Below, one piece after another: positions 6,723 through 35,620 of a DNA stretch of 39,721 nt. Numbering within the stretch: the stretch's first letter is position 1; every line of letters starts with the position of its first letter. Below the pieces are notes generated by a model that saw only the letters and a list, made by a program, of their open reading frames with translations, had not been told where the DNA came from and ran no database searches. Source of the stretch: an uncultured Eubacterium sp. (GTDB taxonomy: Bacteria; Bacillota; Clostridia; Lachnospirales; Lachnospiraceae); NCBI GenBank assembly GCA_904420085.1, contig CAJFUA010000033.1, positions 1 through 39,721 on the forward strand, written 5' to 3'. The position numbers and the translations under genes are program-made.

Positions 6723-7325
6723 ATGCTGAATTATATTTGGGCGGTTATGATTGTGGTAGGGGTTATATATGGAGTTTTTACCGGGAATATAGAGCAGGTA
6801 GGAGACGGGGCAATCGAATCAGCAGAGGAAGCGGTCAAGCTGTGCATTACAATGCTTGGAATCATGAGCATGTGGATGGGATTTATGGGGGTGGCGGAAA
6901 AAAGTGGTCTGGTGGCAAAGGCAGAGAAAATGTTAGAACCGGTTATTCACTGGCTGTTTCCGGCACTTCCGAAAGACCATAAGGCCAGAGCCCATATTAT
7001 AACGAATATCATTGCAAATATATTGGGGTTGGGCTGGGCGGCAACGCCGGCAGGATTAAAAGCAATGGAGGAATTGGCAAAAGACCCGATTCCTCAAAAA
7101 GGAAAGATTCTGCCGGGCCACATTTCTACCAATGAAATGTGTACGTTTCTTGTACTTAATATATCCTCCCTGCAATTAATACCGGTCAACATGATTGCTT
7201 ATCGGAGTCAGTATGGCTCTGCCAGTCCGGCGTCCATTGTGGCTCCGGCGATTCTGGCAACCACAATCAGTACGCTGGTGGGGGTAATTTTCTGTAAAAT
7301 TATGTGTAAATATACGTTGAAGTAA
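6723..7325 (+). CDS. spmA: Spore maturation protein A
   Basis: SpmA is a nucleoside-recognition (Gate)-domain membrane protein that, with SpmB, is needed for full spore-core dehydration and heat resistance. The 200-aa length, N-terminal membrane segment, ITNIIANILGLGWAATPAGL stretch and NEMCTFLVLNISSLQLIP motif are typical of the family. Start ATG 6723 follows a modest GGAGCAGG site. In Bacillus spmA and spmB are adjacent and cotranscribed. Here spmB lies about 8.3 kb downstream (15595) with a riboswitch operon and an antiporter in between. The family call is firm. Confidence 0.93.
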   Translation: MLNYIWAVMIVVGVIYGVFTGNIEQVGDGAIESAEEAVKLCITMLGIMSMWMGFMGVAEKSGLVAKAEKMLEPVIHWLFPALPKDHKARAHIITNIIANILGLGWAATPAGLKAMEELAKDPIPQKGKILPGHISTNEMCTFLVLNISSLQLIPVNMIAYRSQYGSASPASIVAPAILATTISTLVGVIFCKIMCKYTLK

Positions 7326-7326
7326 T

Positions 7327-7355
7327 TTGACATGTATAGGGTGCTGTTATAAAAT
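7327..7355 (+). promoter_or_regulatory. Strong promoter of the cobalamin-riboswitch operon
   Basis: TTGACA at 7327-7332, 17-bp spacer, TAAAAT at 7350-7355: a near-consensus sigma-A promoter two bases after the spmA stop. Predicted transcription start is about 7362, roughly 20 nt before the riboswitch aptamer. Confidence 0.8.
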
Positions 7356-7379
7356 AAGGATGTCAATTTGATAAAACAG

Positions 7380-7563
7380 GTTGTGGTCCGGAATCGTCGC
7401 TTAACAGATGACGGTTGCCGGTTTAAGGGAAGTCCGGTGTGAATCCGGCACAGTCTTTCTCTACTGTATGAGGGACGAACGAAGCATTCTGCCACGGAAG
7501 AGATTCTGGAAGGCGCTTTTAGTAGGAGGAACTTAAGTCAGGATACGTCAACACAACGAACCG
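7380..7563 (+). promoter_or_regulatory. Cobalamin (adenosylcobalamin-type) riboswitch
   Basis: The conserved blocks of a B12 riboswitch occur in order: AAGGGAA near 7425, GGTGTGAATCCGGCACAG (7437-7453), CTACTGT (7461-7467), GCCACGG near 7491, and the B12 box AAGTCAGGATACGTC at 7535-7549. Outer strands GTTGTG and CACAAC can close P1. No U-tract terminator lies between the aptamer and the ATG at 7596, while the AAGGAGG ribosome site is close, so control is probably on translation initiation of the first gene. High cobalamin would repress the uptake genes. Confidence 0.95.
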
Positions 7564-7595
7564 GAAAACGCAAGCAAGGCGAGAAGGAGGAGAAA

Positions 7596-8723
7596 ATGAA
7601 CAGATTAACAAAGAGACTTTTGTCAGTGGTTATGGCGCTGGCAATGATTTTATCAACAATGACAGTTACCTTTGCACAGGGAACAGATACCATTCAGGTG
7701 ACAATGACCATTGAACGCCTGACAATCGGTCAGGGCTTTTTGGTGGAACCGGTAACGGTAGAAGTGAATGAAGGAGCATCTGTACAGGATGTACTGGAGA
7801 AAGTGGCAGCAGAGAAGAATCTTACGCTGGATATGCCGGGTGGATATTTGAATGCCATCAGTTATGCAGATACAGGCGTGATAAATATTCCACAGTCCAT
7901 TCAGGATATGCCGTCCATTGATGTGGATTACGGAGAATATGGTAAATATCATTACGATGCACCGACAAATTCAAGTAGCAATGCTTTATTTGAGGACAAC
8001 CAGAAGTTAGGAACCGGATCTTATGGTGAATTGGCAGGATGGATGTACAGTCTGAATAACAGCGAATCAATTAATGGAATGGATGCGCAGCCGGTAAACG
8101 ACGGTGATGTGGTAAGAGTTCAGTTCAGCGTATATGCCGCAGGTGCGGATCTTGGTTTTACAAGCTGGTATGACAATATAGAAAGTGCAAAATTAGCCAA
8201 CAAAGATGAACTGATTAAGATAGTGGCAGGTGTGGATGCAGAAGGCGCCTACAAAGATGCCAGAGCAGAAGCAGTGGAAGTATTGGAAAATTATGATGCA
8301 ACACAGGAAGAAGTGGACGATGCTTTAGCAAAATTGGGTTATGAGGAACCGACCACAGAGCAGGAGACTACGGAAGCACCGACAACAGAGGAAGTTACCA
8401 CGACAGCGCCGACCACTCCGGAAACAACTACATTTACAAAAGTTGGCAAAGTAAAAATAAAGAAATTAACAAATGTAAAGAAATACAGAGTAAAAATTAA
8501 AATTAACAAAGTAAGTAAGGCAAAAGGCTATCAATACAGATACGCCACCAATAAAAAATTTAAAAAGAGTAAAGTTAAGATAACGACAAAAAGAACATTT
8601 ACAACAAAGAGACTGTCCAAAGGGGTCAGATGTTACGTAAAAGTTCGAGCTTACGTAAAAAACGGAAAAATGAGAGTTTTTGGTAAGTGGAGCAATGTAA
8701 AATCAGTGAAAGTCAAAAAATAA
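7596..8723 (+). CDS. Secreted DUF4430 (transcobalamin C-domain-like) protein with Fn3 tail
   Basis: First gene under the riboswitch. The 375-aa product has a signal peptide (residues 1-28, cleavage near TFAQ), then a DUF4430 domain (about 35-178) with its hallmark GELAGWMYSLN near 145-155 and NDGDVVRVQFS. A short helical FIVAR-like segment follows (about 190-247), then a Thr/Glu/Pro-rich linker (248-278) and a very basic Fn3-like domain (about 280-375, ending GKWSNVKSVKVKK) of the kind common on Lachnospiraceae surface proteins. DUF4430 is structurally related to the C-terminal domain of transcobalamin/intrinsic factor. No lipobox or sortase motif is seen, so wall association would have to come from the basic tail. 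Proposed role: extracellular corrinoid capture, inferred from domain plus riboswitch. Confidence 0.85.
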   Translation: MNRLTKRLLSVVMALAMILSTMTVTFAQGTDTIQVTMTIERLTIGQGFLVEPVTVEVNEGASVQDVLEKVAAEKNLTLDMPGGYLNAISYADTGVINIPQSIQDMPSIDVDYGEYGKYHYDAPTNSSSNALFEDNQKLGTGSYGELAGWMYSLNNSESINGMDAQPVNDGDVVRVQFSVYAAGADLGFTSWYDNIESAKLANKDELIKIVAGVDAEGAYKDARAEAVEVLENYDATQEEVDDALAKLGYEEPTTEQETTEAPTTEEVTTTAPTTPETTTFTKVGKVKIKKLTNVKKYRVKIKINKVSKAKGYQYRYATNKKFKKSKVKITTKRTFTTKRLSKGVRCYVKVRAYVKNGKMRVFGKWSNVKSVKVKK

Positions 8724-8727
8724 TTTT

Positions 8728-8762
8728 AATAGGCAGGGGAGTTTACCCTTGCCTATTCTTTC
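8728..8762 (+). terminator. Intra-operon terminator/attenuator
   Basis: AATAGGCAGGGG (8728-8739) pairs with ACCCTTGCCTATT (8745-8757) with one bulge, followed by TATTCTTTC. It lies between the first and second genes of the cobalamin operon and has a short U-tract, so partial readthrough is likely. This would make the secreted DUF4430 protein more abundant than the membrane components. Confidence 0.6.
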
Positions 8763-8810
8763 ATGGCATAGAAATGATTCATACTATGAAAAAATGTCAG
8801 GAGGGAACAT

Positions 8811-10691
8811 ATGACAAGATTTGGACAGAGCATAGGAAAATACCTGTTTTTGCCAGGTGTTCTCTTTGTGTGCCTGATTATATTTATAACACCCATTCAG
8901 GGAAAGACAATTTTAACGAAAAATCAGACCACAGAGTATATGGATAAAATATCAGAATACGAGATGAAAAACGTCACAAATCCTACCTATGGAAGTACGG
9001 GGGGAGAATGGCTGATCATGGGACTTGCCCGGTATGGAACATTGACGGAAAGTTATTGTGCCCGATACCTGGAGAATCTGAAAGAGGAAGTAGAAAGCCG
9101 GAAAGGAATACTGTCAGAAACCAAGTACACGGAATATGCCAGAGTGGTACTGGCGCTCACATCAATCAATGAAACTCCGGAAAATTTTGCAGGCTACAAT
9201 CTGTTAAAACCGCTGTCAGAGTTGGATCATGTTTTGAAATCCGGATTAAACGGTGCAGTTTTTTCGCTGCTGGCATTCGATTGTGGAAATTATGACATAC
9301 CGGATGCGAAAAACGATTATACCGGAAGAAAATCCACCCGAGAAAAATTGATTTCTGTATTATTAACTGCACAGTTGGAAGACGGGGGATGGGCAAATAT
9401 GGGAAGCAGGTCGGATGTGGATATGACCGCCATGGTATTGCAGGCATTAGGAAAATACCGGAAACAGGATGAAGTAAAGACAGCAGTAAATCGGGGTATT
9501 CAATATTTGTCAGCAAAGCAGAATGGCAGTGGAGCATTTTCCAGTTCAGGAGTTGAAAATTGCGAAAGTACGGCACAGGTACTTACGGCAATGACAGTGC
9601 TGGGAATCCATGTTTCTGATGACAGATTTGTAAAAAATGGGAATACGGTGTTAGATGGTCTGCTGAAATATTACAAGGATGGCGGATTTAAACATACGGC
9701 AAACAGTTTTGTCAATCAGATGGCAACGGAGCAGGCTATGTATGCCCTCACGGCATATTACAGAAGCCTGACAGAAGAAAATGGCCTTTATGAAATGGCA
9801 GACAACAATTCATACAAAGATACGGACAGTGCGAAGAAATCTACCACCGGTAAAAGCAGTCGGAAAAGCAGCAAAATGAATAAAAAGCAGCAGAAAAAAG
9901 AAACGCAGGCAACATCACAGACAGATAAAAAGAAAAGCGCCTTGGAAACAAGGGCGGCAGAAACTGTGACGGCGCAGGGCAATGATACAGTAACAAAGCA
10001 GAAAAATCAAAGCAGCAGAAAAGAAAAGGGAACTCAGCAGACAAGCGGAAACAGAACTGAGATGGAAAGTACAGGGGAATCCACGAGTGCCGCTGAGGAA
10101 GTCAAAGAGGAACGAAAGAAAGAGGAAAATCATAGGAATTATGGAGGAATAGGAATCGGGCTGGCAGTAATTGTTTTGGCAGGGGCTGGTATTTTCTTAA
10201 AAAAGAAAAATAAACTGTTTATCATGCTGATCGCCGTATGCATTTTCTTTGGCGGATGTGGGAGTGATATGGCAAAGGACAGCGCCGGAACCTGTACTAT
10301 TCTGGTGAAGTGTTCCTCGATTTATAATAATTTAGAAAAATTGGACAAGGGGTTGAAAGAACATATCCCAAAGGATGGAATCATTTTAAAGGAGCAGGAA
10401 GTTTCTTTTGAGAAAGATGACAGTGTATATGATGTGCTTGCAAGGGAATTAAAAAAGAACCGGATACTTATGGAAGCTTCTTTTACGGCAAACAGCGCCT
10501 ATATAGAGGGAATAGATAATATCTATGAGTTTTCCTGTGGGGAATTGTCCGGTTGGATGTACAGTGTAAATGGAGAATATGCGCAGGTAAGCTGTAGTGA
10601 TTATAAGGTAAAAGACGGAGATAAAATACAGTGGAGTTACACCTGTGATTTAGGTGAAGATATTAAAGCAAAGGCGGGAGGCGAACAGTGA
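8811..10691 (+). CDS. Surface protein: alpha-toroid + TM + internal lipobox + DUF4430 (transcobalamin-like)
   Basis: This 626-aa protein has an N-terminal signal segment (about 8-31), then a prenyltransferase/squalene-cyclase-type alpha/alpha-toroid region (about 40-330) with repeats such as AQLEDGGWANMGSRSD and AKQNGSGAFSS. A long Lys/Ser/Gln/Glu linker (about 340-440) leads to a TM helix (446-463), KKKNK (464-468), a second hydrophobic run (469-480) ending in the lipobox-like FGGC (Cys483), and a DUF4430 domain (about 490-615) with GELSGWMYSVNG. Toroid plus DUF4430 is the two-domain plan of transcobalamin/intrinsic factor, which clamp B12 between the domains. The TM/lipobox hairpin would place both domains outside. 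It starts at ATG 8811 behind AGGAGGG and overlaps ecfT by four bases. The corrinoid ligand is inferred from the riboswitch and ECF genes. Confidence 0.85.
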   Translation: MTRFGQSIGKYLFLPGVLFVCLIIFITPIQGKTILTKNQTTEYMDKISEYEMKNVTNPTYGSTGGEWLIMGLARYGTLTESYCARYLENLKEEVESRKGILSETKYTEYARVVLALTSINETPENFAGYNLLKPLSELDHVLKSGLNGAVFSLLAFDCGNYDIPDAKNDYTGRKSTREKLISVLLTAQLEDGGWANMGSRSDVDMTAMVLQALGKYRKQDEVKTAVNRGIQYLSAKQNGSGAFSSSGVENCESTAQVLTAMTVLGIHVSDDRFVKNGNTVLDGLLKYYKDGGFKHTANSFVNQMATEQAMYALTAYYRSLTEENGLYEMADNNSYKDTDSAKKSTTGKSSRKSSKMNKKQQKKETQATSQTDKKKSALETRAAETVTAQGNDTVTKQKNQSSRKEKGTQQTSGNRTEMESTGESTSAAEEVKEERKKEENHRNYGGIGIGLAVIVLAGAGIFLKKKNKLFIMLIAVCIFFGGCGSDMAKDSAGTCTILVKCSSIYNNLEKLDKGLKEHIPKDGIILKEQEVSFEKDDSVYDVLARELKKNRILMEASFTANSAYIEGIDNIYEFSCGELSGWMYSVNGEYAQVSCSDYKVKDGDKIQWSYTCDLGEDIKAKAGGEQ

Positions 10692-11548
10692 AAGATGAAT
10701 TTGCAAGGTTTCATCCAATGGTAAATTTTATATTTTATGCGGTGGTTTTGGGAATTACCATGTTTCAGATGCAGATAGGTCTGGTGTTGATATCTGTATG
10801 TTCGGCGTTGGTTTATTACTTCTGTTTGAAAGGAATGGAAGGGATGCCATATTTGTTTGTAATCGGTTGTATTTTCCTTTTATCTTCCCTGATTAACCCG
10901 CTGTTTTCCCATAAGGGGGCAACCTTATTGTTTTATCTGTTTACGGGGAATCCGGTCACGCTGGAATCCATTGTTTACGGAATCGTGTCGGCGGCAATTA
11001 TCAGTGGAATGCTGCTGTGGTTTTCTACCTTTCATCAGATCATGGGAATGGAGCGGATGCTGGGCGCCGTGGGAAAGGCTTTTCCCCATATCGCCCTTTT
11101 AATTACGATGATTTTACGGTTTATACCCAAATATACAAAGCATCAGAGAGAAGTGGCAGTAATCAATAAAACGGACGGTTCATCATGGAAAGACAGAATC
11201 AGACAGGGCAGTAAAACATTTTCCATTACCGCCACATGGGCATTGGAAAATTCTGTTTACACTGCAGACTCCATGAAAGCCAGGGGCTTTGGAGCAGCAA
11301 AAAGAACCGGGTACAGCAATTATAAAATAGAAGGCAGGGATGTTCTGGCAATTCTTTGGATTGTGGCTCTAGCAGCAGGCGTGCTTTGGATGCTGCGGAG
11401 GGAATGCCTGTTTACCTATTATTATCCGTATATTGTTTACAAAGAGAGCATACCTGCATATGTATTGTATACATTGCTATGTATGACGCCGGTTGGGATT
11501 CATGTAGGAGAAGAAATAAGATGGCACAGATTGAAATCAAAGATTTAA
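10688..11548 (+). CDS. ecfT: ECF transporter transmembrane component T
   Basis: EcfT is the scaffold membrane subunit of an energy-coupling factor importer; it links the S component to the ATPases through cytoplasmic coupling helices. The 286-aa product has N-terminal and C-terminal membrane segments around a cytoplasmic helical region. The motif SMKARGFGAAKRTGY contains the Ala-Arg-Gly signature used to bind EcfA. It begins four bases inside the previous gene (GTGA overlap at the GTG/TGA junction, 10688-10691) and its end overlaps the ATPase start by 28 bases, so the three genes are translationally coupled. Confidence 0.92.
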   Translation: MKDEFARFHPMVNFIFYAVVLGITMFQMQIGLVLISVCSALVYYFCLKGMEGMPYLFVIGCIFLLSSLINPLFSHKGATLLFYLFTGNPVTLESIVYGIVSAAIISGMLLWFSTFHQIMGMERMLGAVGKAFPHIALLITMILRFIPKYTKHQREVAVINKTDGSSWKDRIRQGSKTFSITATWALENSVYTADSMKARGFGAAKRTGYSNYKIEGRDVLAILWIVALAAGVLWMLRRECLFTYYYPYIVYKESIPAYVLYTLLCMTPVGIHVGEEIRWHRLKSKI

Positions 11549-13086
11549 GTTTTAAATATCGATTGGCAGACAAGGAAAGTCTGAAGGAAGTTTCCCTTAC
11601 CGTGGAGCAGGGGCAGTTTGTTGTGGTGTGCGGGAAATCGGGCTGTGGAAAGACCACATTGCTCCGTTGCTTAAAACCCAATATCCGTCCGGCAGGAGAG
11701 ATGACAGGAACATTTCTTTATGAAGGAAAAAGAATAGAAACATTGTCAGACAGAGAGCAGGCAACGGAAATCGGATATGTGATGCAAAATCCCGAACATC
11801 AGATTGTGACGGACAAAGTGTGGCATGAGATGGCTTTCGGATTGGAAAATCTGGGAGAGAAAACAGAAACTATTCGGGCAAAGGTGGCAGAAATTGCAGA
11901 GTATTTTGATATAACCGGCTGGTATCATCAGGATACGGACAGTTTATCTGGGGGACAGAAGCAGTTGTTGAATCTGGCCGCTATCATGGTGATGAACCCT
12001 AAGGTACTGGTGCTGGATGAGCCGACTGCCCAGTTGGATCCCATTGCGTCAGAGCGATTCTTAGATATATTAAAGAAAATCAATGAGGATTTTGGTATTA
12101 CGGTTATTCTGTCGGAGCATCGGTTAAATTATGTACTGCAGAAAGCAGATAAAGTGCTGATACTTCATGAGGGAGGCGTTCGGGCATTGGGAGATGCAGA
12201 GGAAGTGGTAAGAGAAGGTCTGACGATGGATATTGAACCGCTGATGCCTGTGCCCGGCAGGATTTTTCATGCCGCAAAGGGGCAGGGAAAAGTTCCGATT
12301 TCTATTTTGGAAGGAAGAAAATGGATAGAAAAAAACATAAACCTGAAGAACTGTATGGAAGAAAATGGGTCATCTGTCAATGAGAAAGACAGGTCTGACC
12401 AATGGGGAATTGTCTGTAAAAATTTATGGTTCCGTTATGAAAAGAATGGAGAAGATATTATAAAAGGGCTGAATCTGAAAGTAAAGAAAGGCCAGATATT
12501 CGCCATTCTCGGTGGAAACGGAACAGGAAAGACAACGACGATTTTGCTTTTGGCAGGCATTTTAAAAGCCTATCGTGGAAAAGTAAACACGTTCGGAAAG
12601 ACGGCAGTCCTGCCCCAAAACGTACAGACATTGTTTGAGAACGAAACGCTGGCAGAGGAAATAGGAAATGTGTCGGATGAGATTATGGAGCAAATGGGGC
12701 TGAAGGAATTGTTGGAGATGCACCCTTATGATTTAAGCGGGGGAGAGCAGCAGAAAGCAGGACTGGCAAAAATCATTGCAAAAGAGCCGGATATTTTATT
12801 GTTGGATGAACCGACGAAAGGTATTGACAATTTGTTTAAAGAAGAATTAGGTAATTTTCTCAGACAGTTGACAGAGAAGGGAAAGACCATTATTCTCGTC
12901 AGTCACGATTTGGATTTTTGCGGGGAGTATGCAGACCGGTGCGGACTTTTTGCCGATGGAATGCTGATATCGGAAAATAATGCAAGAGAGTTTTTTACCC
13001 ATAACAGATTTTATACCACCACCGTGGCAAAAATGACAAAAGGTATCATAGAAGATGCGTACAGGCGGGAGGATTTATTATGTTAA
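11521..13086 (+). CDS. ecfA: ECF transporter ATPase, EcfA-EcfA' fusion
   Basis: One 521-aa chain holds both ECF ATPases. Domain 1 has Walker A GKSGCGKTT (about residue 39), Q-loop QNPEHQIVTD, signature LSGGQKQ (about 141), Walker B VLVLDEPTAQLD and switch SEHRLN. Domain 2 has Walker A GGNGTGKTTT (about 331), signature LSGGEQQK, Walker B ILLLDEPTKGID and switch VSHDLDF. Separate ecfA1 and ecfA2 genes are more usual in the shared Firmicute ECF module, so the fusion suggests a dedicated (group I) importer. ATG 11521 is chosen because AGGAG at 11507-11511 fits and MAQIEIKDLSFKY is a canonical NBD start; the longer open frame to 11356 overlaps ecfT and lacks support. Confidence 0.93.
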   Translation: MAQIEIKDLSFKYRLADKESLKEVSLTVEQGQFVVVCGKSGCGKTTLLRCLKPNIRPAGEMTGTFLYEGKRIETLSDREQATEIGYVMQNPEHQIVTDKVWHEMAFGLENLGEKTETIRAKVAEIAEYFDITGWYHQDTDSLSGGQKQLLNLAAIMVMNPKVLVLDEPTAQLDPIASERFLDILKKINEDFGITVILSEHRLNYVLQKADKVLILHEGGVRALGDAEEVVREGLTMDIEPLMPVPGRIFHAAKGQGKVPISILEGRKWIEKNINLKNCMEENGSSVNEKDRSDQWGIVCKNLWFRYEKNGEDIIKGLNLKVKKGQIFAILGGNGTGKTTTILLLAGILKAYRGKVNTFGKTAVLPQNVQTLFENETLAEEIGNVSDEIMEQMGLKELLEMHPYDLSGGEQQKAGLAKIIAKEPDILLLDEPTKGIDNLFKEELGNFLRQLTEKGKTIILVSHDLDFCGEYADRCGLFADGMLISENNAREFFTHNRFYTTTVAKMTKGIIEDAYRREDLLC

Positions 13087-13700
13087 GACAGTATTATCTG
13101 ATTGCCATAGTGATGATATTTTTGGCAGTTCTGTTTTTTCTATGGTCTTTTGAAAAAAGGAAACCGCAGACAAGAGAGATTGTCATGCTGGCAGTGCTGA
13201 CAGCCATGGCAATTGTGGGTCGGCTGATATTTTTTATGACACCTCAGTTTAAACCATGCGCGGCAGTGATTATTATTACGGCAGTCATGCTTGGCAAAGA
13301 AGCCGGATTTTTGTGTGGCTGTCTTACGGCTTTTATCTCTGATTTCTTTTTTGGGCAGGGACCGTGGACGCCCTGGCAGATGTTTGCCTTCGGAATAATC
13401 GGTCTGGTGTCGGCATTAATTTTCAGTGGTGCGGGAAAAAGGCTGATAGAAAACCGCCTGTTTATAAGTGTGTACGGTTTTTTCATTACATTTGTGCTTT
13501 ACGGAATGATTATGGACACGGCAACGGTACTTATGTATACCGATACACCTACGTTCGGAGCATTTCTGGCAGCTTATACCGGTGGAATTGTATTTAACCT
13601 GATTCACGGACTGTCCACCTTTGTATTTTTATTTGTTTTATCACAAACAATGTTTAAAAAAATCAAAAGAATAAAAGTGAAATTTAATATGTTTCATTAA
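13080..13700 (+). CDS. ECF transporter S component, probably cobalamin-specific (CbrT-like)
   Basis: This 206-aa, about six-helix membrane protein is the substrate-binding S subunit of the ECF importer. The N-terminal half has a TM helix, then TREIVMLAVLTAMAIVGR, PQFKPCAAVIIITAVMLGKEAGF and DFFFGQGPWTPWQMFAFG, the conserved S-component pattern that includes the Ala-rich EcfT-contact helix. The start overlaps the ATPase stop by seven bases. The riboswitch over the operon and the transcobalamin-like partners point to cobalamin or another corrinoid as ligand. The exact S-family (CbrT, CblT or a new one) cannot be settled without a search. Confidence 0.85.
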   Translation: MLRQYYLIAIVMIFLAVLFFLWSFEKRKPQTREIVMLAVLTAMAIVGRLIFFMTPQFKPCAAVIIITAVMLGKEAGFLCGCLTAFISDFFFGQGPWTPWQMFAFGIIGLVSALIFSGAGKRLIENRLFISVYGFFITFVLYGMIMDTATVLMYTDTPTFGAFLAAYTGGIVFNLIHGLSTFVFLFVLSQTMFKKIKRIKVKFNMFH

Positions 13701-13912: not shown

Positions 13913-15262
13913 ATGGAAAAATATGGGTATTTGTGGCAGTTAGCATTAATTTTAGCCAGCACAAAATTGTTTGGTCTGGTAACCAAAAGATTTAAGATGC
14001 CACAGGTGGTTGGCGCACTTTTAGCAGGACTGATTTTAGGACCGGCGGTTTTAGGAAATATATTGTCAGGAGTTACGATTGGCGGCTTTCCGCTGGTAGA
14101 CCTGACGCTCTATGAGACTTCATTTATCAGTCATCTGGCAGAAATCGGTGTCATCGTGCTGATGTTCTGCGCAGGTCTTGAAACCGATATCAACGAATTA
14201 AAGAAATGCGGTCTGGCATCGTTTATTATTGCCGTATCCGGTGTGATTGTGCCATTAATAGGCGGTGGAATCTTTACTTACTGGTTTTTAAAGGAAGGCT
14301 GGATTGCTCCGGCAGATTCATCTTCTATTTTCATGCAGGCAGTATTTGTAGGCGTCATACTTACAGCCACATCCGTCAGCATCACGGTTGAGACATTGCA
14401 GGAAATGGGAAAATTAAAGACTGCGTCCGGCAATGCCATTTTAGGAGCGGCGATTATCGATGACATCTTAGGAATTGTGGCACTTACTATTGTTATCAGT
14501 CTTGGCGGAACGCCTTCTAAAGGAGCAGAGAGTGAGCCTCTTGGAATGGTTCTCTTAAAGATTGCACTGTTCTTTGTGTTTGTTGCAGTCTTTGGTTTTA
14601 TTATATATAAACTATATAAAAAGTGGTGTGAATATGACGGCAAGGGAAAACACAGACATGCTATTATGGCATTTGTTATCTGTCTGCTGATGTCCTTTGC
14701 GGCGGAAAGTTTTTTTGGCGTGGCAGATATTACCGGAGCATTCTTTGCCGGAGTAATTATTTCCATGACACAGAAAGATCAGTTTATTGCATCCAAGTTT
14801 GATGTAGTTGCCTATATGCTGTTAAGCCCGATTTTCTTCGCAAGCATCGGACTGAAAGTAGACGGGGAAGCGGTAATGCAGATGGGATTTCTTGTGGCGG
14901 TTTATGCTGTGGGTCTGACCATTGTTGCAATTCTGACAAAAATAATTGGCTGTGGATTTGGAGCCAAAGCATGTAAATATAAGAATTATCAGTGTCTGCG
15001 TATCGGTGTGGGAATGGTATCCCGTGGCGAGGTTGCACTGATTGTGGCAAATAAAGGAATTGAAGCAAATCTGATGAGTTCGGAGATTGTGGCGCCGGTG
15101 ATTATTGTTGTAATCGTGACTACCATACTGACTCCGATTATCTTAAAACCGGTATTTGCACGGAAGGGCGCTAACGGCGTGGATGTGCCGAAGGAAAGCA
15201 AACTGGTAGCCAATTATGAAGAAAGAGCAGAATATAATAGGTATAAACCGAAAAATAATTAA
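13913..15262 (+). CDS. CPA2-family cation/proton antiporter
   Basis: This 449-aa membrane protein exchanges Na+ or K+ for protons. It shows the Na/H exchanger fold: about 12 hydrophobic segments, PQVVGALLAGLILGPAVLG near the N terminus, FCAGLETDINELKK, ATSVSITVETLQEMGKL, and the paired acidic residues AAIIDDILGIV that form the ion-binding site. GVGMVSRGEVALIVANKG marks the later half. The DD pair favours electrogenic Na+/H+ exchange, as in NapA-like proteins. No TrkA-N domain is attached. It has its own promoter and structured leader, with AGAAGGA before the start, and ends in a strong terminator. Confidence 0.9.
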   Translation: MEKYGYLWQLALILASTKLFGLVTKRFKMPQVVGALLAGLILGPAVLGNILSGVTIGGFPLVDLTLYETSFISHLAEIGVIVLMFCAGLETDINELKKCGLASFIIAVSGVIVPLIGGGIFTYWFLKEGWIAPADSSSIFMQAVFVGVILTATSVSITVETLQEMGKLKTASGNAILGAAIIDDILGIVALTIVISLGGTPSKGAESEPLGMVLLKIALFFVFVAVFGFIIYKLYKKWCEYDGKGKHRHAIMAFVICLLMSFAAESFFGVADITGAFFAGVIISMTQKDQFIASKFDVVAYMLLSPIFFASIGLKVDGEAVMQMGFLVAVYAVGLTIVAILTKIIGCGFGAKACKYKNYQCLRIGVGMVSRGEVALIVANKGIEANLMSSEIVAPVIIVVIVTTILTPIILKPVFARKGANGVDVPKESKLVANYEERAEYNRYKPKNN

Positions 15263-15594: not shown

Positions 15595-16119
15595 ATGTCA
15601 ATATTTGTAACCATATCATCTTTTATCATACCGGGAATTATGATGTTTATTGTCATATATGGAGTGGTGAAAAAGCGGAATGTTTATGATGATTTTGTGG
15701 AGGGGGCCACAGGTGGATTAAAAACAGTCATTAAAGTTATGCCCACATTAATCGGTCTCATGGTGGCAGTAGGCGTTCTCAGAGAGTCGGGCTTTATGGA
15801 TTTTCTGGGAGATGTGGCAGGAAAAATTACGGAACCGATAGGATTTCCGGGAGAATTAATGCCGGTAACCATCGTCAAAATTTTTTCCTCATCGGCAGCT
15901 ACGGGTATGGTGTTGGACATTTTTAAATCCTATGGGCCGGATTCTTATTTGGGGAAAATCACTTCCCTCATGATGAGTTGTACGGAAACCATATTTTATA
16001 CCATGTCCGTCTATTATCTCACTGCGAAAGTGACGAAAACCAGATGGACCCTGTCTGGTGCAATTTTGGCCACAATCGGCGGAACAATTGCCAGTGTAAT
16101 ACTTGCAAATTTCATTTAA
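15595..16119 (+). CDS. spmB: Spore maturation protein B
   Basis: SpmB is the partner of SpmA, an inner-membrane protein required for spore-core dehydration. The 174-aa length and the motifs DDFVEGATGGLKTVIKVMP, AVGVLRESG, FSSSAATGMV and SCTETIFYTMSVYY are characteristic. It now stands alone, far from spmA, with an own candidate sigma-E promoter. It lies 67 bp upstream of a sugar kinase gene that has its own AGGAGG site. Confidence 0.93.
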   Translation: MSIFVTISSFIIPGIMMFIVIYGVVKKRNVYDDFVEGATGGLKTVIKVMPTLIGLMVAVGVLRESGFMDFLGDVAGKITEPIGFPGELMPVTIVKIFSSSAATGMVLDIFKSYGPDSYLGKITSLMMSCTETIFYTMSVYYLTAKVTKTRWTLSGAILATIGGTIASVILANFI

Positions 16120-28189: not shown

Positions 28190-30547
28190 ATGATGGATAG
28201 ATTGATAAAATCAGACAGGATTGAAACTTTGAAAAACAGAATGCTTTCGGTTCCAAGATTTGCATCCATTGAACAGGCGAGAATTATTACGGACACATAT
28301 AAGGAGCATGAAGACGAACCAAGAATTATGCAGAGAGCATATTCGCTGAAGAATTGTCTTGAGAAGATAAATATCAGTGTTGAACCGGAAGAACTGATTG
28401 TGGGAAACAGAACGGCAGGGGTCAGATACGGCGTGGTATTTCCGGAAAGCGGCAGCACATGGGTTGACAAGGAATTTGAGACTTTACCCACCAGACCACA
28501 GGATCAATTTAACGTAAGAGAGGAAGATATTCAATATTTCCGGGAGGTAATTTATCCTTACTGGCAGGGTAAGTCTCTGGAAGATGTATTGAGAGCCAGA
28601 TACGGCAAAGAGATTGATGAAATATCAAAGGTGGCAAAAATCAACCAGAAAGACCATGCTCAGGGACATATTAACCCGGATTGTGAAGGATGGTTGAAGA
28701 AAGGTCCGGCAGGATTAAAGGCAGAGGCAGAGGCATATCTGGAAAAGGAAACAGATGAGGAGAAGAAACTTTTCTATCAGAGCGTTGTCACTGTTATGGA
28801 AGGAACCATCCATTTTATACAGAGATACAGAGATTTATTAAACAGTCAGGCAGAAGAAAATCCGGCATGGGCGGATAATATGAGAACGGTTGCCCGGGTC
28901 TGTGACAATATTTCAAAGAGACCGGCAGAAACATTCCACGAGGCGGCACAGGCACTATGGTTTTTATTTGTAATATTACAGATGGAGTCCAACGCATCTT
29001 CTTTCTCTCCGGGGCGGATGGATGTGTTTATGTACCCGTACTACAGACATGACATTGATAAAGGTATCTCAACAGATCAGGAAATTTTGGATATTATTGA
29101 GAGCCTTTGGCTGAAATTTAATGAGATTGTTTATATGAGAAATTCTCACAGCGCAAAGTTCTTCGCAGGATTTCCGATTGGATTTAATATTGCATTAGGC
29201 GGTCAGGACGACAAGGGTGAGCCGTATGAGAATGAGGTGTCCTATCTGCTGTTAAAAGCGCAGGAGCATATCGGGCTGCCTCAGCCAAACCTTTCGGTCA
29301 GACTTTGCGAAAAGACTAGCGATAAACTTCTGAAAGCGGCCATTAAAGTAGTGTCTCTCGGAAGCGGAATGCCACAGTTTTTCAATGATAATGCCGTGAT
29401 TCCGGCAATGATCGATGATTTGGATATAGAAGAGGCGGATGCGAGAAATTATGCCATTGTAGGCTGCGTGGAACTTACCACCCAGGGTAATAATCTGGGC
29501 TGGTCAGACGCTGCAATGTTCAATCTGAACAAGGCTTTGGAATTGGCATTGAATAACGGTAAATGCCTTCTGACGGGACAGCAGCTGGCGCCGGACAGAG
29601 GGAATCTGACAACCTTTGATACCTATGAGGAGTTAGAAGAGACATTCAGAGCCAATATCGATTACTTTATGGACAAGATGATACTGGCCTGCGAGCAGGT
29701 AGAACAGGCGCATATGGACTTATTGCCGACACCGTTCCTTTCCTCCGTTATTAATGACTGTATGGAGAAGGGCGAGGATGTGACAAGAGGCGGTGCAAAA
29801 TACAACCTGTCCGGTATTCAGATGATACAGGTGGCAAATCTTGCGGACAGTCTGGCGGCAATCAAACAGCTGGTGTATGACGAGAAGAAAGTAACCAGGG
29901 AAAGACTTCTTGCCGCACTGCAGAATAATTATAAAGAGGATGAGATTCTCAGAACCATGCTTTTAAATAAAGTTCCTAAGTATGGTAATGATGTGGAATG
30001 GGTTGATAACCTTGGCGTGAAGTGGGCGAAATACTTTAGGGAACGGTTGAACCAGTTTACCAACTACCGTGGCGGAAAATACCATACAGGTATGTATACC
30101 GTATCAGCTCACGTACCGATGGGAGAAAATGTGGGAGCATCACCGGATGGCAGATATGCTAAAACTCCATTGGCTGACGGTGGAATGTCGCCGGTTTACG
30201 GACGTGATGAACACGGACCGACCGCCGTGTTGAAGTCTGTAGCCAGACTGGATAAGAGCTGGACCACCAACGGTGGACTGCTGAATATGAAGTTCCTTCC
30301 GGAATTCTTCAAGACGGAAAACGGCATTGATAAGTTTGCTAAAATGCTTAGAACTTTTGTAGATTTGGAGATTCCACATATTCAGTTTAATGTGGTAAGA
30401 AAAGAAGATTTGCTGGCGGCAAAGGAAAATCCTGAACAGTACAGAAATCTGACTGTACGGGTAGCCGGATATACGGCATATTTTGTGGAGCTGGCAGGCG
30501 AACTTCAGGATGAAATTATTGCAAGAACAAGTTATAATGATATTTAG
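28190..30547 (+). CDS. Glycyl radical enzyme, PflD/YbiW-type (1,5-anhydrohexitol-6-phosphate ring opening proposed)
   Basis: The 785-aa protein has the thiyl cysteine in YAIVGCVELTTQGNN (Cys426) with the C-x-E glutamate of eliminase-type GREs, and the glycyl loop TVRVAGYTAYF with Gly760, 25 residues from the end. Pyruvate formate-lyase has two adjacent cysteines, so this is not PFL. The active-site neighbourhood (GCVELTT-GNNLGWSDAAMFNLNKALEL) resembles E. coli PflD. PflD and YbiW are reported to open 1,5-anhydromannitol and 1,5-anhydroglucitol 6-phosphates to 1-deoxyfructose 6-phosphate. The neighbours (PTS, activase, FSA-type aldolase) match that pathway. Either ATG 28190 or 28193 may be used; GGAGG at 28181-28185 fits 28193 better. 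The substrate is inferred, and choline, glycerol or propanediol seem unlikely from context. Confidence 0.88.
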   Translation: MMDRLIKSDRIETLKNRMLSVPRFASIEQARIITDTYKEHEDEPRIMQRAYSLKNCLEKINISVEPEELIVGNRTAGVRYGVVFPESGSTWVDKEFETLPTRPQDQFNVREEDIQYFREVIYPYWQGKSLEDVLRARYGKEIDEISKVAKINQKDHAQGHINPDCEGWLKKGPAGLKAEAEAYLEKETDEEKKLFYQSVVTVMEGTIHFIQRYRDLLNSQAEENPAWADNMRTVARVCDNISKRPAETFHEAAQALWFLFVILQMESNASSFSPGRMDVFMYPYYRHDIDKGISTDQEILDIIESLWLKFNEIVYMRNSHSAKFFAGFPIGFNIALGGQDDKGEPYENEVSYLLLKAQEHIGLPQPNLSVRLCEKTSDKLLKAAIKVVSLGSGMPQFFNDNAVIPAMIDDLDIEEADARNYAIVGCVELTTQGNNLGWSDAAMFNLNKALELALNNGKCLLTGQQLAPDRGNLTTFDTYEELEETFRANIDYFMDKMILACEQVEQAHMDLLPTPFLSSVINDCMEKGEDVTRGGAKYNLSGIQMIQVANLADSLAAIKQLVYDEKKVTRERLLAALQNNYKEDEILRTMLLNKVPKYGNDVEWVDNLGVKWAKYFRERLNQFTNYRGGKYHTGMYTVSAHVPMGENVGASPDGRYAKTPLADGGMSPVYGRDEHGPTAVLKSVARLDKSWTTNGGLLNMKFLPEFFKTENGIDKFAKMLRTFVDLEIPHIQFNVVRKEDLLAAKENPEQYRNLTVRVAGYTAYFVELAGELQDEIIARTSYNDI

Positions 30548-30557
30548 ACGACAGGGT

Positions 30558-30584
30558 GCAGATGCGGAAGTTGACCGCATCTGC
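30558..30584 (+). other. Perfect 10-bp hairpin between GRE and activase genes
   Basis: GCAGATGCGG (30558-30567) pairs perfectly with CCGCATCTGC (30575-30584) around AAGTTGA. CACAATAAAA follows, so there is no U-tract. It probably protects the abundant GRE message and lowers activase expression. Confidence 0.6.
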
Positions 30585-30640
30585 CACAATAAAATGTTTT
30601 GTAACCTTTACAGGAGATTGAAAGGCAGAGCAGTTGAGCT

Positions 30641-31552
30641 ATGAAGGGATATGTTTTTGATTTTAAACGATTTTCAACCCATGACGGTGCAGGAATCCGA
30701 ACCACCATATTTTTAAAAGGCTGTACGTTAAACTGCGTGTGGTGCCAGAACCCGGAAGGGATATCCATCAGGCAGAGACCACTGCATTTTCCGAAAAAAT
30801 GTATTCATTGCATGACATGTGTTCATTTGGCAAAAAAAGACGGTGTGATTCTGAACAATGGAGAAATTAAATTGGATGTGTCGAAAGAAGAGGATTGGAA
30901 AGCAATCATCGATCATTGTCCGTCAGGAGCGCTGACAATGGATTCCAGACAGATGACGGTGGAGGAAGTGTTGGAGGAAGCCTGCAAAGATACACCGTTT
31001 TTCAAGTATGGCGGCGGTGTTACGCTATCCGGCGGCGAACCGCTGTTTCAGCATGAGTTTGCCATTCAGATATTGAAAGGGCTCAAACAGCGGGGCATTG
31101 CTACTACCATTGAAACCGCATCCCATATTCCTACCAGAATTTATCAGGAGGCTGTCAAATATACGGATTACATTTTTGCTGATTTAAAAATTATGGACAG
31201 TGAAAAGCATAAAAAATATACCGGTGTGGGTAATGATTTGATTAAGCAAAACATTGAGTGGCTGTTAAAGTCAAAAAAGGCAGAAAATGTGACAATTCGG
31301 ACACCGTTAATTCCGGGAATGACAACGGATGAAGAAAATATTGCGGAAATAGCAAAGTTTATCACGGATATTTATCCGGATGTCAAATATGAGATTTTAA
31401 ACTATAACCCATTGGCGCAGGCGAAGTATGATATGGTGGATAAGGAGTTTTGTTTTGAAAAAAATCCACCGTTGTACAGTGATGAGCAGATGCGTGCTTT
31501 TGGGGAAATTGCCAAAGACAACGGAGTTAAAAATCTTCTGTTGGAAATATAA
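30641..31552 (+). CDS. Glycyl-radical enzyme activating enzyme (radical SAM)
   Basis: This 303-aa radical SAM protein installs the glycyl radical. CTLNCVWC gives the CxxxCxxC cluster (Cys28, 32, 35). A ferredoxin-like insert has CIHCMTC (Cys54, 57, 60) and HCPSGA (Cys93), enough for one extra 4Fe-4S cluster; many GRE activases carry two. GGGVTLSGGEPLFQ is the SAM-binding GGE motif. The start at ATG 30641 is forced by an upstream in-frame stop, but the best ribosome site, AGGAGA at 30612-30617, is over 20 bases away, which is unusual. It is placed 94 bp after its GRE. Confidence 0.93.
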   Translation: MKGYVFDFKRFSTHDGAGIRTTIFLKGCTLNCVWCQNPEGISIRQRPLHFPKKCIHCMTCVHLAKKDGVILNNGEIKLDVSKEEDWKAIIDHCPSGALTMDSRQMTVEEVLEEACKDTPFFKYGGGVTLSGGEPLFQHEFAIQILKGLKQRGIATTIETASHIPTRIYQEAVKYTDYIFADLKIMDSEKHKKYTGVGNDLIKQNIEWLLKSKKAENVTIRTPLIPGMTTDEENIAEIAKFITDIYPDVKYEILNYNPLAQAKYDMVDKEFCFEKNPPLYSDEQMRAFGEIAKDNGVKNLLLEI

Positions 31553-31610
31553 AAAGTGCATATGGCAGAAAGTTCTGCCTTAACAAAAGAAATATTTTGG
31601 AGGTATTATT

Positions 31611-32288
31611 ATGAAATTTATCATCGATGATGCAAATGTGGCAAAGGTTAAGGAGATTTGGGATTTGTACCCATGTGATGGTGTGACAACCAACCCATCC
31701 ATTCTGGCAAAAAGTGGAAGAAATCCTTATGATGTTTTGAAGGAATTGAGAGAAATTGTGGGAGAAGACGGAGAGCTTCATGTACAGGTTGTATCTAAGG
31801 ATGCAGAGGGAATGATGAAGGAAGCCGCTGTAATCCGTGAGAAGTTAGGGGAAAATACATTTATAAAAATTCCTACCACACCTCAGGGGCTGAAAGCCAT
31901 GAAGGCACTGGCGGCAGAAGGCGTCAACATTACGGCGACAGCCATTTACACGGCAATGCAGGCATTTCTTGCGGCAAAGGCAGGGGCAAAATACACGGCG
32001 CCTTACATTAACAGAATTGATAATTTCGGTTACAACGGTGTGCAGGTTGCCATGGACATTCAGGACATATTTGAAAATAATAATCTGCCATGTAATGTGC
32101 TGGCGGCAAGTTTTAAAAATTCGCAGCAGGTATTGGAACTGACAAAATACGGAATCGGCGCGGCAACCATCGGCTGTGACGTGATTGAAGGTTTAATTAA
32201 AAATAAGGCAATTGATGCAGCCATTGATGTGTTTAATGAAGATTTTGCTTCAATTACAGGAGAAGGAAAGACAATGGCGGACTGCTAA
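31611..32288 (+). CDS. fsa: Fructose-6-phosphate aldolase-like transaldolase (FSA/TalC)
   Basis: This 225-aa protein is a small transaldolase-family class I aldolase. The start MKFIIDDANVAKVKEIW with DGVTTNPSILAKSG and the Schiff-base motif TFIKIPTTPQGL (Lys86) match FsaA/FsaB and TalC. In E. coli FsaA/B reversibly cleave fructose 6-phosphate, and are reported to split 1-deoxyfructose 6-phosphate into glyceraldehyde 3-phosphate and hydroxyacetone after PflD/YbiW. Its place right behind the GRE and activase supports that role here. A hairpin GGCAGA/TCTGCC lies at 31565-31580 just upstream. No gldA-like dehydrogenase is seen in the window. Confidence 0.92.
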   Translation: MKFIIDDANVAKVKEIWDLYPCDGVTTNPSILAKSGRNPYDVLKELREIVGEDGELHVQVVSKDAEGMMKEAAVIREKLGENTFIKIPTTPQGLKAMKALAAEGVNITATAIYTAMQAFLAAKAGAKYTAPYINRIDNFGYNGVQVAMDIQDIFENNNLPCNVLAASFKNSQQVLELTKYGIGAATIGCDVIEGLIKNKAIDAAIDVFNEDFASITGEGKTMADC

Positions 32289-34336: not shown

Positions 34337-35620
34337 TTAGGCACTAAGACTATTTATCTGATTTATCCTTATTTCACCTAATACCTTTTGTGCGTCGTAG
34401 CTCTCATGAGTTTTCGCAACATGAAACATTACTCTCATTAGTTTCAACCCAACCGCCAAGACTGCCTGCTGATGTGCCAACTGATTACTCGGTCTATGCC
34501 GTAAATACTGATAATACATCATCATTTCAGGACTGACTAACATACCTTTATCACCTATAATATAAATTATTTTTCTTAATCCCGGTCTTCCTCTTTTACT
34601 GATGCTTGTTTTTCCCTTATGCATACCGGAGCTTTGCTCTACTAAATTAAGCCCTGCCATTTTTCTAACTTGTTTCCAATCATCAAATCGCGACAAATCA
34701 CCTGTCTCTGCCACAAAGGCCGCTGCTGTAACCTTTCCCACTCCTGGAACACTTGTCAAATATATGCTGATATCTAATTCATTCATTATCATTTCCATTT
34801 CTGCATCATATTTTTCTATACTTGCATCTAGGATATCCATCTGGTCCAACATTGTATTTAAACCAACCCTAGCAGCTTCAATGCCTACTTTTATTCCAAT
34901 ACTATTCATAGCCTCTTCTTTTAGCTGATATACTTTTTGACGACCTATGCGCATCGTTTTTCCCAAAGCCATCCTCCATTTATTCCATATTTCTTCAGCC
35001 TCCATTTCTATCAAATCCTTAGGAAATGGCGTTGTCCTAAGAATCGCCCTCGCACTAATTGACGATACTTCATAACCTACTTTCTCGTACTCTGGAAAAT
35101 ATTCATCCATCAATACTTTAATATTACAAATAAGCCTCTTTCTAGCTATGGATGCCTGTTCTCTATAACGTCTTAGAATACGTAACTGCGCATACTTTTC
35201 TTCCGGTAAATATATTTCAAAAAATCTTCCATCTCTTATCAATCGAGCTATAACCAATGCATCTTTCTTGTCACTTTTGGTTTGTGTATTATCATCTAGT
35301 TCTTTCATCTGCTTTACATGAAATGGATTCACACCCAAAAGTATGATATTTTCTTCACTTTCCAAGAAATATGCAAGATTTTTCCAATAGTGACCAGATG
35401 GTTCAAAACCTAATAAAATCTGTTTACATCCTATTTGACCACAGATTTCTTTTATTACATGTAAAGACTCTTGAAATCCCTCAAAAGTGTTTTCAACTTT
35501 GATGGGCTTACATAATGCATTTCCTCTGTAGTCCGTCACCTGTGACCAGTGAATCTTCTTAGCAATGTCCACTCCTACAATCAATGTAGCTTCCGTAATC
35601 ATTCTTAATTTATTTTTCAT
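34337..35620 (-). CDS. IS110-family transposase (DEDD recombinase)
   Basis: The 427-aa protein has an N-terminal RuvC-like DEDD domain beginning IVGVDIAKKIHW (first Asp) and including TQTKSDKKDALVIARLI. The C-terminal transposase_20 (helix-hairpin-helix) domain has YLTSVPGVGKVTAAAFVAE, FDDWKQVRKMAGLN and VEQSSGMHKGKTSISKRG, which holds the candidate catalytic serine. It is full length and appears intact. Start at 35620 follows AGGAGG by about seven bases. IS110 enzymes use a bridge RNA to pair target and donor DNA. Confidence 0.93.
   Translation of the reverse strand: MKNKLRMITEATLIVGVDIAKKIHWSQVTDYRGNALCKPIKVENTFEGFQESLHVIKEICGQIGCKQILLGFEPSGHYWKNLAYFLESEENIILLGVNPFHVKQMKELDDNTQTKSDKKDALVIARLIRDGRFFEIYLPEEKYAQLRILRRYREQASIARKRLICNIKVLMDEYFPEYEKVGYEVSSISARAILRTTPFPKDLIEMEAEEIWNKWRMALGKTMRIGRQKVYQLKEEAMNSIGIKVGIEAARVGLNTMLDQMDILDASIEKYDAEMEMIMNELDISIYLTSVPGVGKVTAAAFVAETGDLSRFDDWKQVRKMAGLNLVEQSSGMHKGKTSISKRGRPGLRKIIYIIGDKGMLVSPEMMMYYQYLRHRPSNQLAHQQAVLAVGLKLMRVMFHVAKTHESYDAQKVLGEIRINQINSLSA

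Follow-up and report, generated by a model that had tools for sequence, protein, structure and literature searches.

Vitamin B12 (cobalamin) uptake is less understood in gut Firmicutes than in Bacteroides or E. coli. Here we report a riboswitch-preceded operon of five genes from an uncultured Eubacterium sp. (Lachnospiraceae), located on a stretch of 39,721 nucleotides (nt) that was analysed as a whole and is referred to below as the window (contig CAJFUA010000033.1 of assembly GCA_904420085.1). The operon encodes two proteins with a DUF4430 domain, one of which also holds an alpha/alpha toroid, followed by EcfT, a fused EcfA-EcfA' ATPase and an S component, which are parts of an energy-coupling factor (ECF) importer. 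A preliminary description, made from the sequence alone, had named the same elements behind a cobalamin riboswitch, and all of them are confirmed by Rfam, open reading frames (ORFs), domain searches and structure models. Two points go beyond that description: the S component is CbrT-like, and a probable membrane hairpin connects the toroid to the DUF4430 domain. The features are collected in Table 1; coordinates are positions in the whole window, on the plus strand unless stated.

Table 1. Promoter, RNA elements and genes of the operon (aa, amino acids).
Feature	Start	End	Strand	Basis or remark
Sigma-70-like promoter, TTGACA-17-TAAAAT	7327	7355	+	Consensus match 11/12; -35 box begins at 7327
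Cobalamin riboswitch aptamer, RF00174	7367	7566	+	Rfam match
Ribosome-binding-site-like stretch, just 3' of aptamer	7585	7592	+	Sequence
375-aa secreted protein, DUF4430 + Fn3-like	7596	8723	+	ORF, domain search, AlphaFold model
Strong RNA hairpin, gap between genes 1 and 2	8728	8757	+	Folding energy
626-aa surface protein, toroid + DUF4430	8811	10691	+	ORF, Pfam, AlphaFold model
EcfT transmembrane coupling subunit, 286 aa	10688	11548	+	Family profile
Fused EcfA-EcfA' ATPase, 521 aa	11521	13086	+	Two ABC_tran stretches, ECF_ATPase model
CbrT-like ECF S component, 206 aa	13080	13700	+	6FNP chain A match

The five genes form a single run on one strand, with the first start codon 29 nt past the end of the aptamer and genes 2 to 5 overlapping by 4, 28 and 7 nt in turn. 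The aptamer matches the full RF00174 model (1-189) with 54.8 bits (E-value 4.3e-11), which passes the gathering score of 31.5 directly upstream of B12-related genes, and is the sole match at E <= 0.001 in the genome (assembly 95% complete, 7.7% contamination). The promoter is the best of 21 sigma-70-like matches between 7100 and 14000, a region in which shuffled sequences average 16.7 matches, and is defined by consensus only. Control by the riboswitch is likely translational: the aptamer is followed by a ribosome-binding-site-like stretch, and no terminator-like site was found before the first ATG. The hairpin in the 87-nt gap behind the first gene (-20.2 kcal/mol, z -3.5) may set the ratio of the first gene product to the others.

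The 626-aa protein consists of a signal peptide, the toroid (residues ~36-330), a disordered linker, the probable membrane hairpin (~446-484) and the DUF4430 domain (~490-615), and contains three hydrophobic segments. Pfam places DUF4430 at 536-611 (E 1.6e-18, 67.3 bits against a cut-off of 23.8) and assigns the toroid stretch to SQHop_cyclase_C at 201-309 (E 7.4e-9). The protein thus carries a toroid and then a beta-grasp domain in one chain, as do transcobalamin and intrinsic factor. Its AlphaFold model, built from 97 aligned sequences, reaches a predicted local distance difference test score (pLDDT) of ~96 for the toroid and ~93 for DUF4430; the linker and the hydrophobic hairpin score low. 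When the model was compared with the PDB using Foldseek, ranks 1-15, with E from 2.4e-9 to 2.9e-7 and alignments of ~600 columns, were all transcobalamin, intrinsic factor or haptocorrin, followed by terpene cyclases at 5e-5; the likeness to transcobalamin and intrinsic factor that had been proposed from the letters is therefore borne out at the level of the predicted fold. The isolated beta domain of transcobalamin (5no0) aligns with a TM-score on target of 0.74 and a root-mean-square deviation (rmsd) of 3.0 Å. At the sequence level, the DUF4430 profile reaches haptocorrin (8.6e-4), intrinsic factor (0.014) and the beta domain of transcobalamin-2 (0.04), and a tryptophan that is invariant across 39/39 aligned bacterial DUF4430 domains aligns with a tryptophan of haptocorrin and intrinsic factor. 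Against a library of viral folds, nothing matched at 0.001.

The 375-aa protein has a signal peptide, a transcobalamin-beta-like DUF4430 domain (~30-180), a Thr/Glu-rich linker (recognized by eye) and a C-terminal, Lys-rich Fn3-like domain. It scores just below the Pfam cut-off for DUF4430 (23.2 versus 23.8 bits). The best PDB match of its AlphaFold model (pLDDT 85.9) is transcobalamin (9.1e-5), with Fn3 domains also matching; the agreement with the beta-grasp fold of transcobalamin (TM-score on target 0.62, rmsd 11 Å) is weaker than that of the 626-aa model.

The S component on its own finds chain A of 6FNP, the CbrT subunit of ECF-CbrT, as its best match (E 6.3e-11) and also matches ECF S families in Pfam. 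A profile of 33 sequences strengthens the match to 6FNP_A to 5.6e-31; the S-component structures ranked next reach 7e-5 and 6e-4. The protein is homologous to CbrT, the B12 subunit of ECF-CbrT. The other parts of an importer of the CbrT type are also present. EcfT alone has no match in Pfam, and its identity is given by a family profile of 27 sequences that matches EcfT structures (5d3m_D) at 1.5e-17; CbiQ is matched by 15 of the 27 members, the one in the window not among them. The fused ATPase contains two ABC_tran stretches, its best NCBIfam models are ECF ATPases, and it lies just below the cut-off of the ECF_ATPase model (307.9 versus 315 bits, E 5.8e-92). ECF-CbrT has been shown experimentally to transport vitamin B12 and cobinamide and to support growth on cobinamide (PMC5997447).

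The host genome holds an 808-aa MetH-like frame, of which the 612 aa scanned contain homocysteine-, pterin- and two B12-binding domains. The only biosynthesis gene sought, CbiC, had no match in this incomplete assembly. Based on these two results, the host probably needs B12 and does not make it.

The distribution of the system was surveyed in 200 genomes of the host's family. DUF4430 (PF14478) is present in 95 of them, with 146 matches, and the surroundings of all matches were annotated with profiles grown from the window proteins, some loci being cut by contig ends. The first 40 loci were hand-picked (mostly riboswitch neighbours, several DUF4430 matches, long frames), and 83 further regions completed the set. 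On the same strand and within 6 kb, the 146 matches are accompanied by a CbrT-like S component (110), EcfT (59), EcfA (73) and a toroid (68). Conversely, the S profile, run on whole genomes at 1e-15, was positive in 96 of the 200 genomes, and 97 of the 103 S genes have a DUF4430 gene on the same strand within 6 kb (59 of 103 within 1 kb). DUF4430 and S occur together in 94 genomes, S alone in two (G033, G092), DUF4430 alone in one (G144) and neither in 103 (Fisher p 6.7e-54, relatedness of the genomes ignored). The counts include five S matches with internal stops (G092, G101, G111, G115, G192). Because its training sequences came from DUF4430 loci, the S profile is biased towards co-occurrence; yet it finds CbrT of Lactobacillus delbrueckii at 5.6e-31, well past the threshold.

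The loci take two forms. In the full form, found in 41 of the 95 DUF4430 genomes, S and EcfT are both linked to DUF4430, in 34 cases with a toroid and in at least 27 with a riboswitch. In the minimal form (49 of 95), S is linked and EcfT is not; only one of these genomes has a toroid, at least 19 have a riboswitch, and the DUF4430 ORF is short (median ~154 aa, range 86-611), its median distance from the S gene being 15 nt. The remaining five genomes have no linked S. Seven minimal loci (L060-L065, L071) were seen to combine a riboswitch, a short DUF4430 protein of 134-247 aa and a CbrT-like S component with no linked EcfT; the riboswitch of L071 is 11 kb off, on the other strand.

The expectation that the gene order would be tied to B12 riboswitches across the family held in part: DUF4430 is tied to the CbrT-like S component, and linkage to the riboswitch is frequent, not universal. 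For at least 60 of the 146 DUF4430 matches, spread over at least 47 of the 95 genomes, the same strand carries RF00174 no more than 12 kb upstream; in at least 31 of these 60 the distance is within 1 kb. About 0.35 cases within 12 kb would be expected by chance, a rough figure that assumes uniform placement in 3-Mb genomes. RF00174 was searched again in 40 of the 95 DUF4430 genomes; the list includes three matches below the gathering score (G107, G161, G188), and the linkage script left out the riboswitches of most genomes without DUF4430. In the vicinity of eight DUF4430/ECF operons (L038, L046, L050, L066-L070), most of them complete, no cobalamin riboswitch was found, and a dedicated genome-wide search for RF00174 in six of the genomes concerned found none.

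Beyond the family, named genomes were scanned with the DUF4430 subfamily from ECF loci, a choice that favours ECF neighbours. The best 80 of at least 590 relatives include Paenibacillus, Clostridium, Blautia hansenii, Ruminococcus bromii, Flavonifractor plautii and Lutispora; among these 80 loci, a toroid was found in 64, EcfT in 71, EcfA in 67 and S in 62. Where at least 4 kb upstream and 4.5 kb downstream were available (50 of the 80), each of the four was found in 46. Twenty-two of the 80 loci, hand-chosen and not random, were scanned against all of Rfam, and 16 have RF00174 upstream on the same strand (6/8, 5/7 and 5/7 in three batches). In L126 it lies downstream only, and L072, L074, L090, L139 and L143 have no match at the gathering score. 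No other riboswitch family passed its threshold in the 22 loci; the only further matches were one T-box leader and one tRNA. A motif script for hidden riboswitches, run on the window and 16 loci, found only that of the window, which is a weak negative because the script also missed the Rfam match of L126.

A comparison of the nearest relatives suggests how the 626-aa protein arose. In L074 and L076, the toroid gene ends in a transmembrane anchor and is followed by a separate DUF4430 gene with a classical lipoprotein signal, the junction being an ATGA overlap in L074 and a 12-nt gap in L076. In the window, L072 and L073, toroid and DUF4430 are in one frame, and the joint reads as a transmembrane anchor, a Lys-rich turn and a former lipoprotein signal with its lipobox cysteine (FGGC, LSGC and FGGC, respectively), then DUF4430. 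In the window, a toroid gene and a DUF4430 lipoprotein gene are fused in frame, and the anchor and the old signal probably form a membrane hairpin. Both domains would then be extracellular, because of the positive-inside rule. Since the lipobox survives, signal peptidase II might, speculatively, still cut the chain into two anchored halves. The family sample contains 11 toroid-first single-ORF DUF4430 fusions, that of the window included; eight of the 11 have two hydrophobic helices and a basic turn between the domains (by eye), and of the 11 only that of the window has a canonical lipobox between the domains. A frameshift or assembly error as the origin of the fusion was rejected in view of the fusions with the same joint in L072 and L073 and of the eight with a hairpin. 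A simple lipobox pattern fits 26 of 80 focal DUF4430 ORFs, so lipoprotein status is not shown to be general.

We read the operon as a cobamide (vitamin B12-type) scavenging system of a B12-requiring Gram-positive bacterium and put the probability of this reading at about 0.78. When cobalamin is scarce, the riboswitch, whose aptamer is observed, would permit expression of the operon. The secreted DUF4430 protein and the membrane-tethered toroid/DUF4430 protein, to judge from their predicted folds, would bind corrinoids outside the membrane, the corrin probably being enclosed between toroid and DUF4430 in the fashion of transcobalamin. The surface proteins would dock on the CbrT homologue and pass the ligand on to it, and the dedicated module of EcfT and EcfA-EcfA', recognized by homology, would power import through ATP hydrolysis.

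Several observations weigh against this reading. The domains of the 626-aa model are not packed as in transcobalamin (rmsd 13.8-19.1 Å and TM-score on target 0.41-0.53 over ranks 1-15), the model having been computed without ligand and with a flexible linker between the domains, and the membrane hairpin is modelled at low confidence. By sequence, the toroid reaches terpene cyclases (squalene-hopene cyclases) and distant toroids. Neither its profile against transcobalamin nor the eukaryotic Cobalamin_bind family (PF01122) against the window toroid gave a match at E 0.01, and Cobalamin_bind weakly matches two of the 28 members of the toroid alignment, at best with 0.0033. A toroid is linked in only one of the 49 minimal-form genomes, so the partnership of DUF4430 and S needs no toroid. 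Nine family loci picked for having no listed riboswitch had none at the gathering score, four of them (L038, L050, L067, L068) not even at E 0.5, and L072 and L074, which lack one at the gathering score, rank among the nearest relatives. Of the 146 DUF4430 matches, 26 have neither S nor a riboswitch nearby, counting riboswitches among the matches listed. To our knowledge, ECF importers are usually described as needing no extracellular binding protein, which we also count against the reading; this operon encodes two putative extracellular binders beside its ECF module, and DUF4430 neighbours nearly all CbrT-like genes in the family (see above).

Other ligands and other functions were considered. 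The ECF module might import cobalt, haem or another ligand, with the riboswitch merely reporting the demand for B12 synthesis: relatives of its EcfT and EcfA are annotated as CbiQ and CbiO of cobalt transport, the nearest solved DUF4430 structure (3U7Z) is labelled 'putative metal binding protein', and genes for cobalt or nickel transporters can also have B12 riboswitches in front of them (PMC2667541). We regard this as very improbable because the S component resembles CbrT, with other S structures far behind, and because no CbiC was found (one gene sought, genome incomplete), so that imported cobalt would feed no corrin pathway; the joint occurrence of DUF4430 and the CbrT-like S component, with three discordant genomes, also speaks against it. 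It is improbable as well that the two surface proteins serve as adhesins or enzymes, sharing the B12 regulon without binding corrinoids. In favour of such a role are the terpene cyclases among the sequence relatives of the toroid, the Fn3-like domain of the 375-aa protein, of a kind common in adhesins, and the 26 DUF4430 matches with neither S nor listed riboswitch nearby. Against this stand the fold pair, which matches B12 carriers before anything else, the close spacing of DUF4430 and S genes in the minimal loci, and again the co-occurrence in 94 genomes.

A further alternative concerns only the identity of the corrinoid and is compatible with a cobamide scavenging system. Gut cobamides are mostly non-cobalamin, and the true ligand could be a precursor or analogue (cobinamide, pseudocobalamin or other lower-base cobamides) instead of cobalamin itself. 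The growth on cobinamide that ECF-CbrT also supports (PMC5997447) and the earlier wording 'or its precursors' for related proteins (PMC1796856) point in this direction, and the MetH-like frame in the genome points away from it; the present evidence does not separate these ligands, and we consider a ligand other than cobalamin possible, though on balance unlikely.

A wider proposal, which we hold tentatively and at somewhat less than even odds, is that CbrT-type ECF importers of Gram-positives are as a rule two-stage: an extracellular receptor resembling transcobalamin, made of DUF4430 and, in systems with a dedicated ECF module, also of a toroid, would capture the cobamide and dock on S, and in the lineage of the window the two halves of the receptor, encoded by two genes in near relatives, would have been joined via a membrane hairpin and maybe re-separated by signal peptidase II.

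The vertebrate B12 carriers are soluble proteins that are taken up by receptors. Transcobalamin, intrinsic factor and haptocorrin have a toroid followed by a transcobalamin-type beta-grasp domain, as in the window; in the window, unlike in these carriers, the two domains are parted by a long linker with a probable hairpin, and the operon encodes a further DUF4430 protein. Burroughs, Balaji, Iyer and Aravind (2007; PMC1796856) predicted that secreted or surface proteins of low-GC Gram-positives with a toroid and a transcobalamin-C-like SLBB domain scavenge B12 or its precursors, noted their operons with CbiO- and CbiQ-like genes and sometimes a second such protein, and proposed that animals acquired the toroid and transcobalamin-C pair from such bacteria. 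These proteins share the domain pair and the CbiO/CbiQ-like neighbours with the window; the words riboswitch and ECF do not occur in the part of that account that was available. Compared with it, the window adds a CbrT-like S component, a riboswitch, two counted forms and a hairpin fusion with a lipobox.

The preliminary description knew of no experimental work on this arrangement. None was found in the literature searched either (subscription papers and preprints lay mostly outside the search), but the idea itself had been predicted in 2007, and the novelty is therefore smaller than first suggested. With the same scope, the CbrT identity, the riboswitch link, the two forms and the lipobox-bearing hairpin fusion were not found in print. 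Among systems of this predicted kind, the window is a new and somewhat unusual case, with links to a proven B12 S-component family and to riboswitch control.

Bacteroides BtuG and BtuH are lipoproteins on the cell surface that bind B12 and supply it to a dedicated transporter, as proposed here for the window proteins; they serve the outer-membrane protein BtuB, unlike the window system. Their folds are unrelated to those of the window proteins: BtuG is a beta-propeller (PMC6977713). BtuH is a DUF4465 protein. ECF-CbrT of Lactobacillus delbrueckii (6FNP) resembles the window in its homologous S component, EcfT and two ECF ATPase domains. Its CbrT gene lies in a nrdJ-cbrS-cbrT-pduO cluster (PMC5997447), whereas in the window the ECF module is part of the same operon; the window differs further in its fused ATPases, two transcobalamin-like surface proteins and riboswitch. 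The best solved bacterial relative of the DUF4430 domain is 3U7Z (RUMGNA_00854 of Ruminococcus gnavus), a stand-alone DUF4430 protein (E 1.8e-10; TM-score on target 0.67-0.68 with the 626-aa model). By eye, it resembles the short DUF4430 proteins of the minimal riboswitch-DUF4430-S loci rather than those of the window, and because of this resemblance it may bind a cobamide. In the open-access literature, no paper naming RUMGNA_00854 and none treating DUF4430 in a bacterial B12 context was found; DUF4430 is mentioned for fish proteins (PMC4350170).

Other parts of the window were annotated in passing. The B12 operon and a Na+/H+ exchanger (13913-15262) lie between two 'Gate' (nucleoside recognition) proteins at 6723-7325 and 15595-16119. 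These two look like SpmA and SpmB, which are usually adjacent, and the arrangement is as though ~8 kb had been inserted between their genes. At 28190-32288, a glycyl radical (pyruvate-formate-lyase-like) enzyme is followed by a seeming activating enzyme and a transaldolase-like gene (the latter two by eye). On the minus strand at 35784-39676, an adjacent UvrD-like helicase and OLD-type ATPase match GajB (3.6e-92) and GajA (1.3e-95), the Gabija anti-phage defence pair, which adjoins an IS110-family transposase (34337-35620).

With a CbrT-like S component and a transcobalamin-like domain together in almost half of the family genomes sampled, the system is a concrete and widespread candidate for B12 uptake with a ready assay. 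It also provides a functional guess for the solved 'metal-binding' structure 3U7Z, and a testable transporter partner for the proposal of 2007 that animal B12 carriers stem from bacteria. If CbrT-type importers are indeed two-stage, they would contradict the textbook view that no external binding protein is required by ECF systems, and the B12 carriers of animals would be the borrowed half of a bacterial importer.

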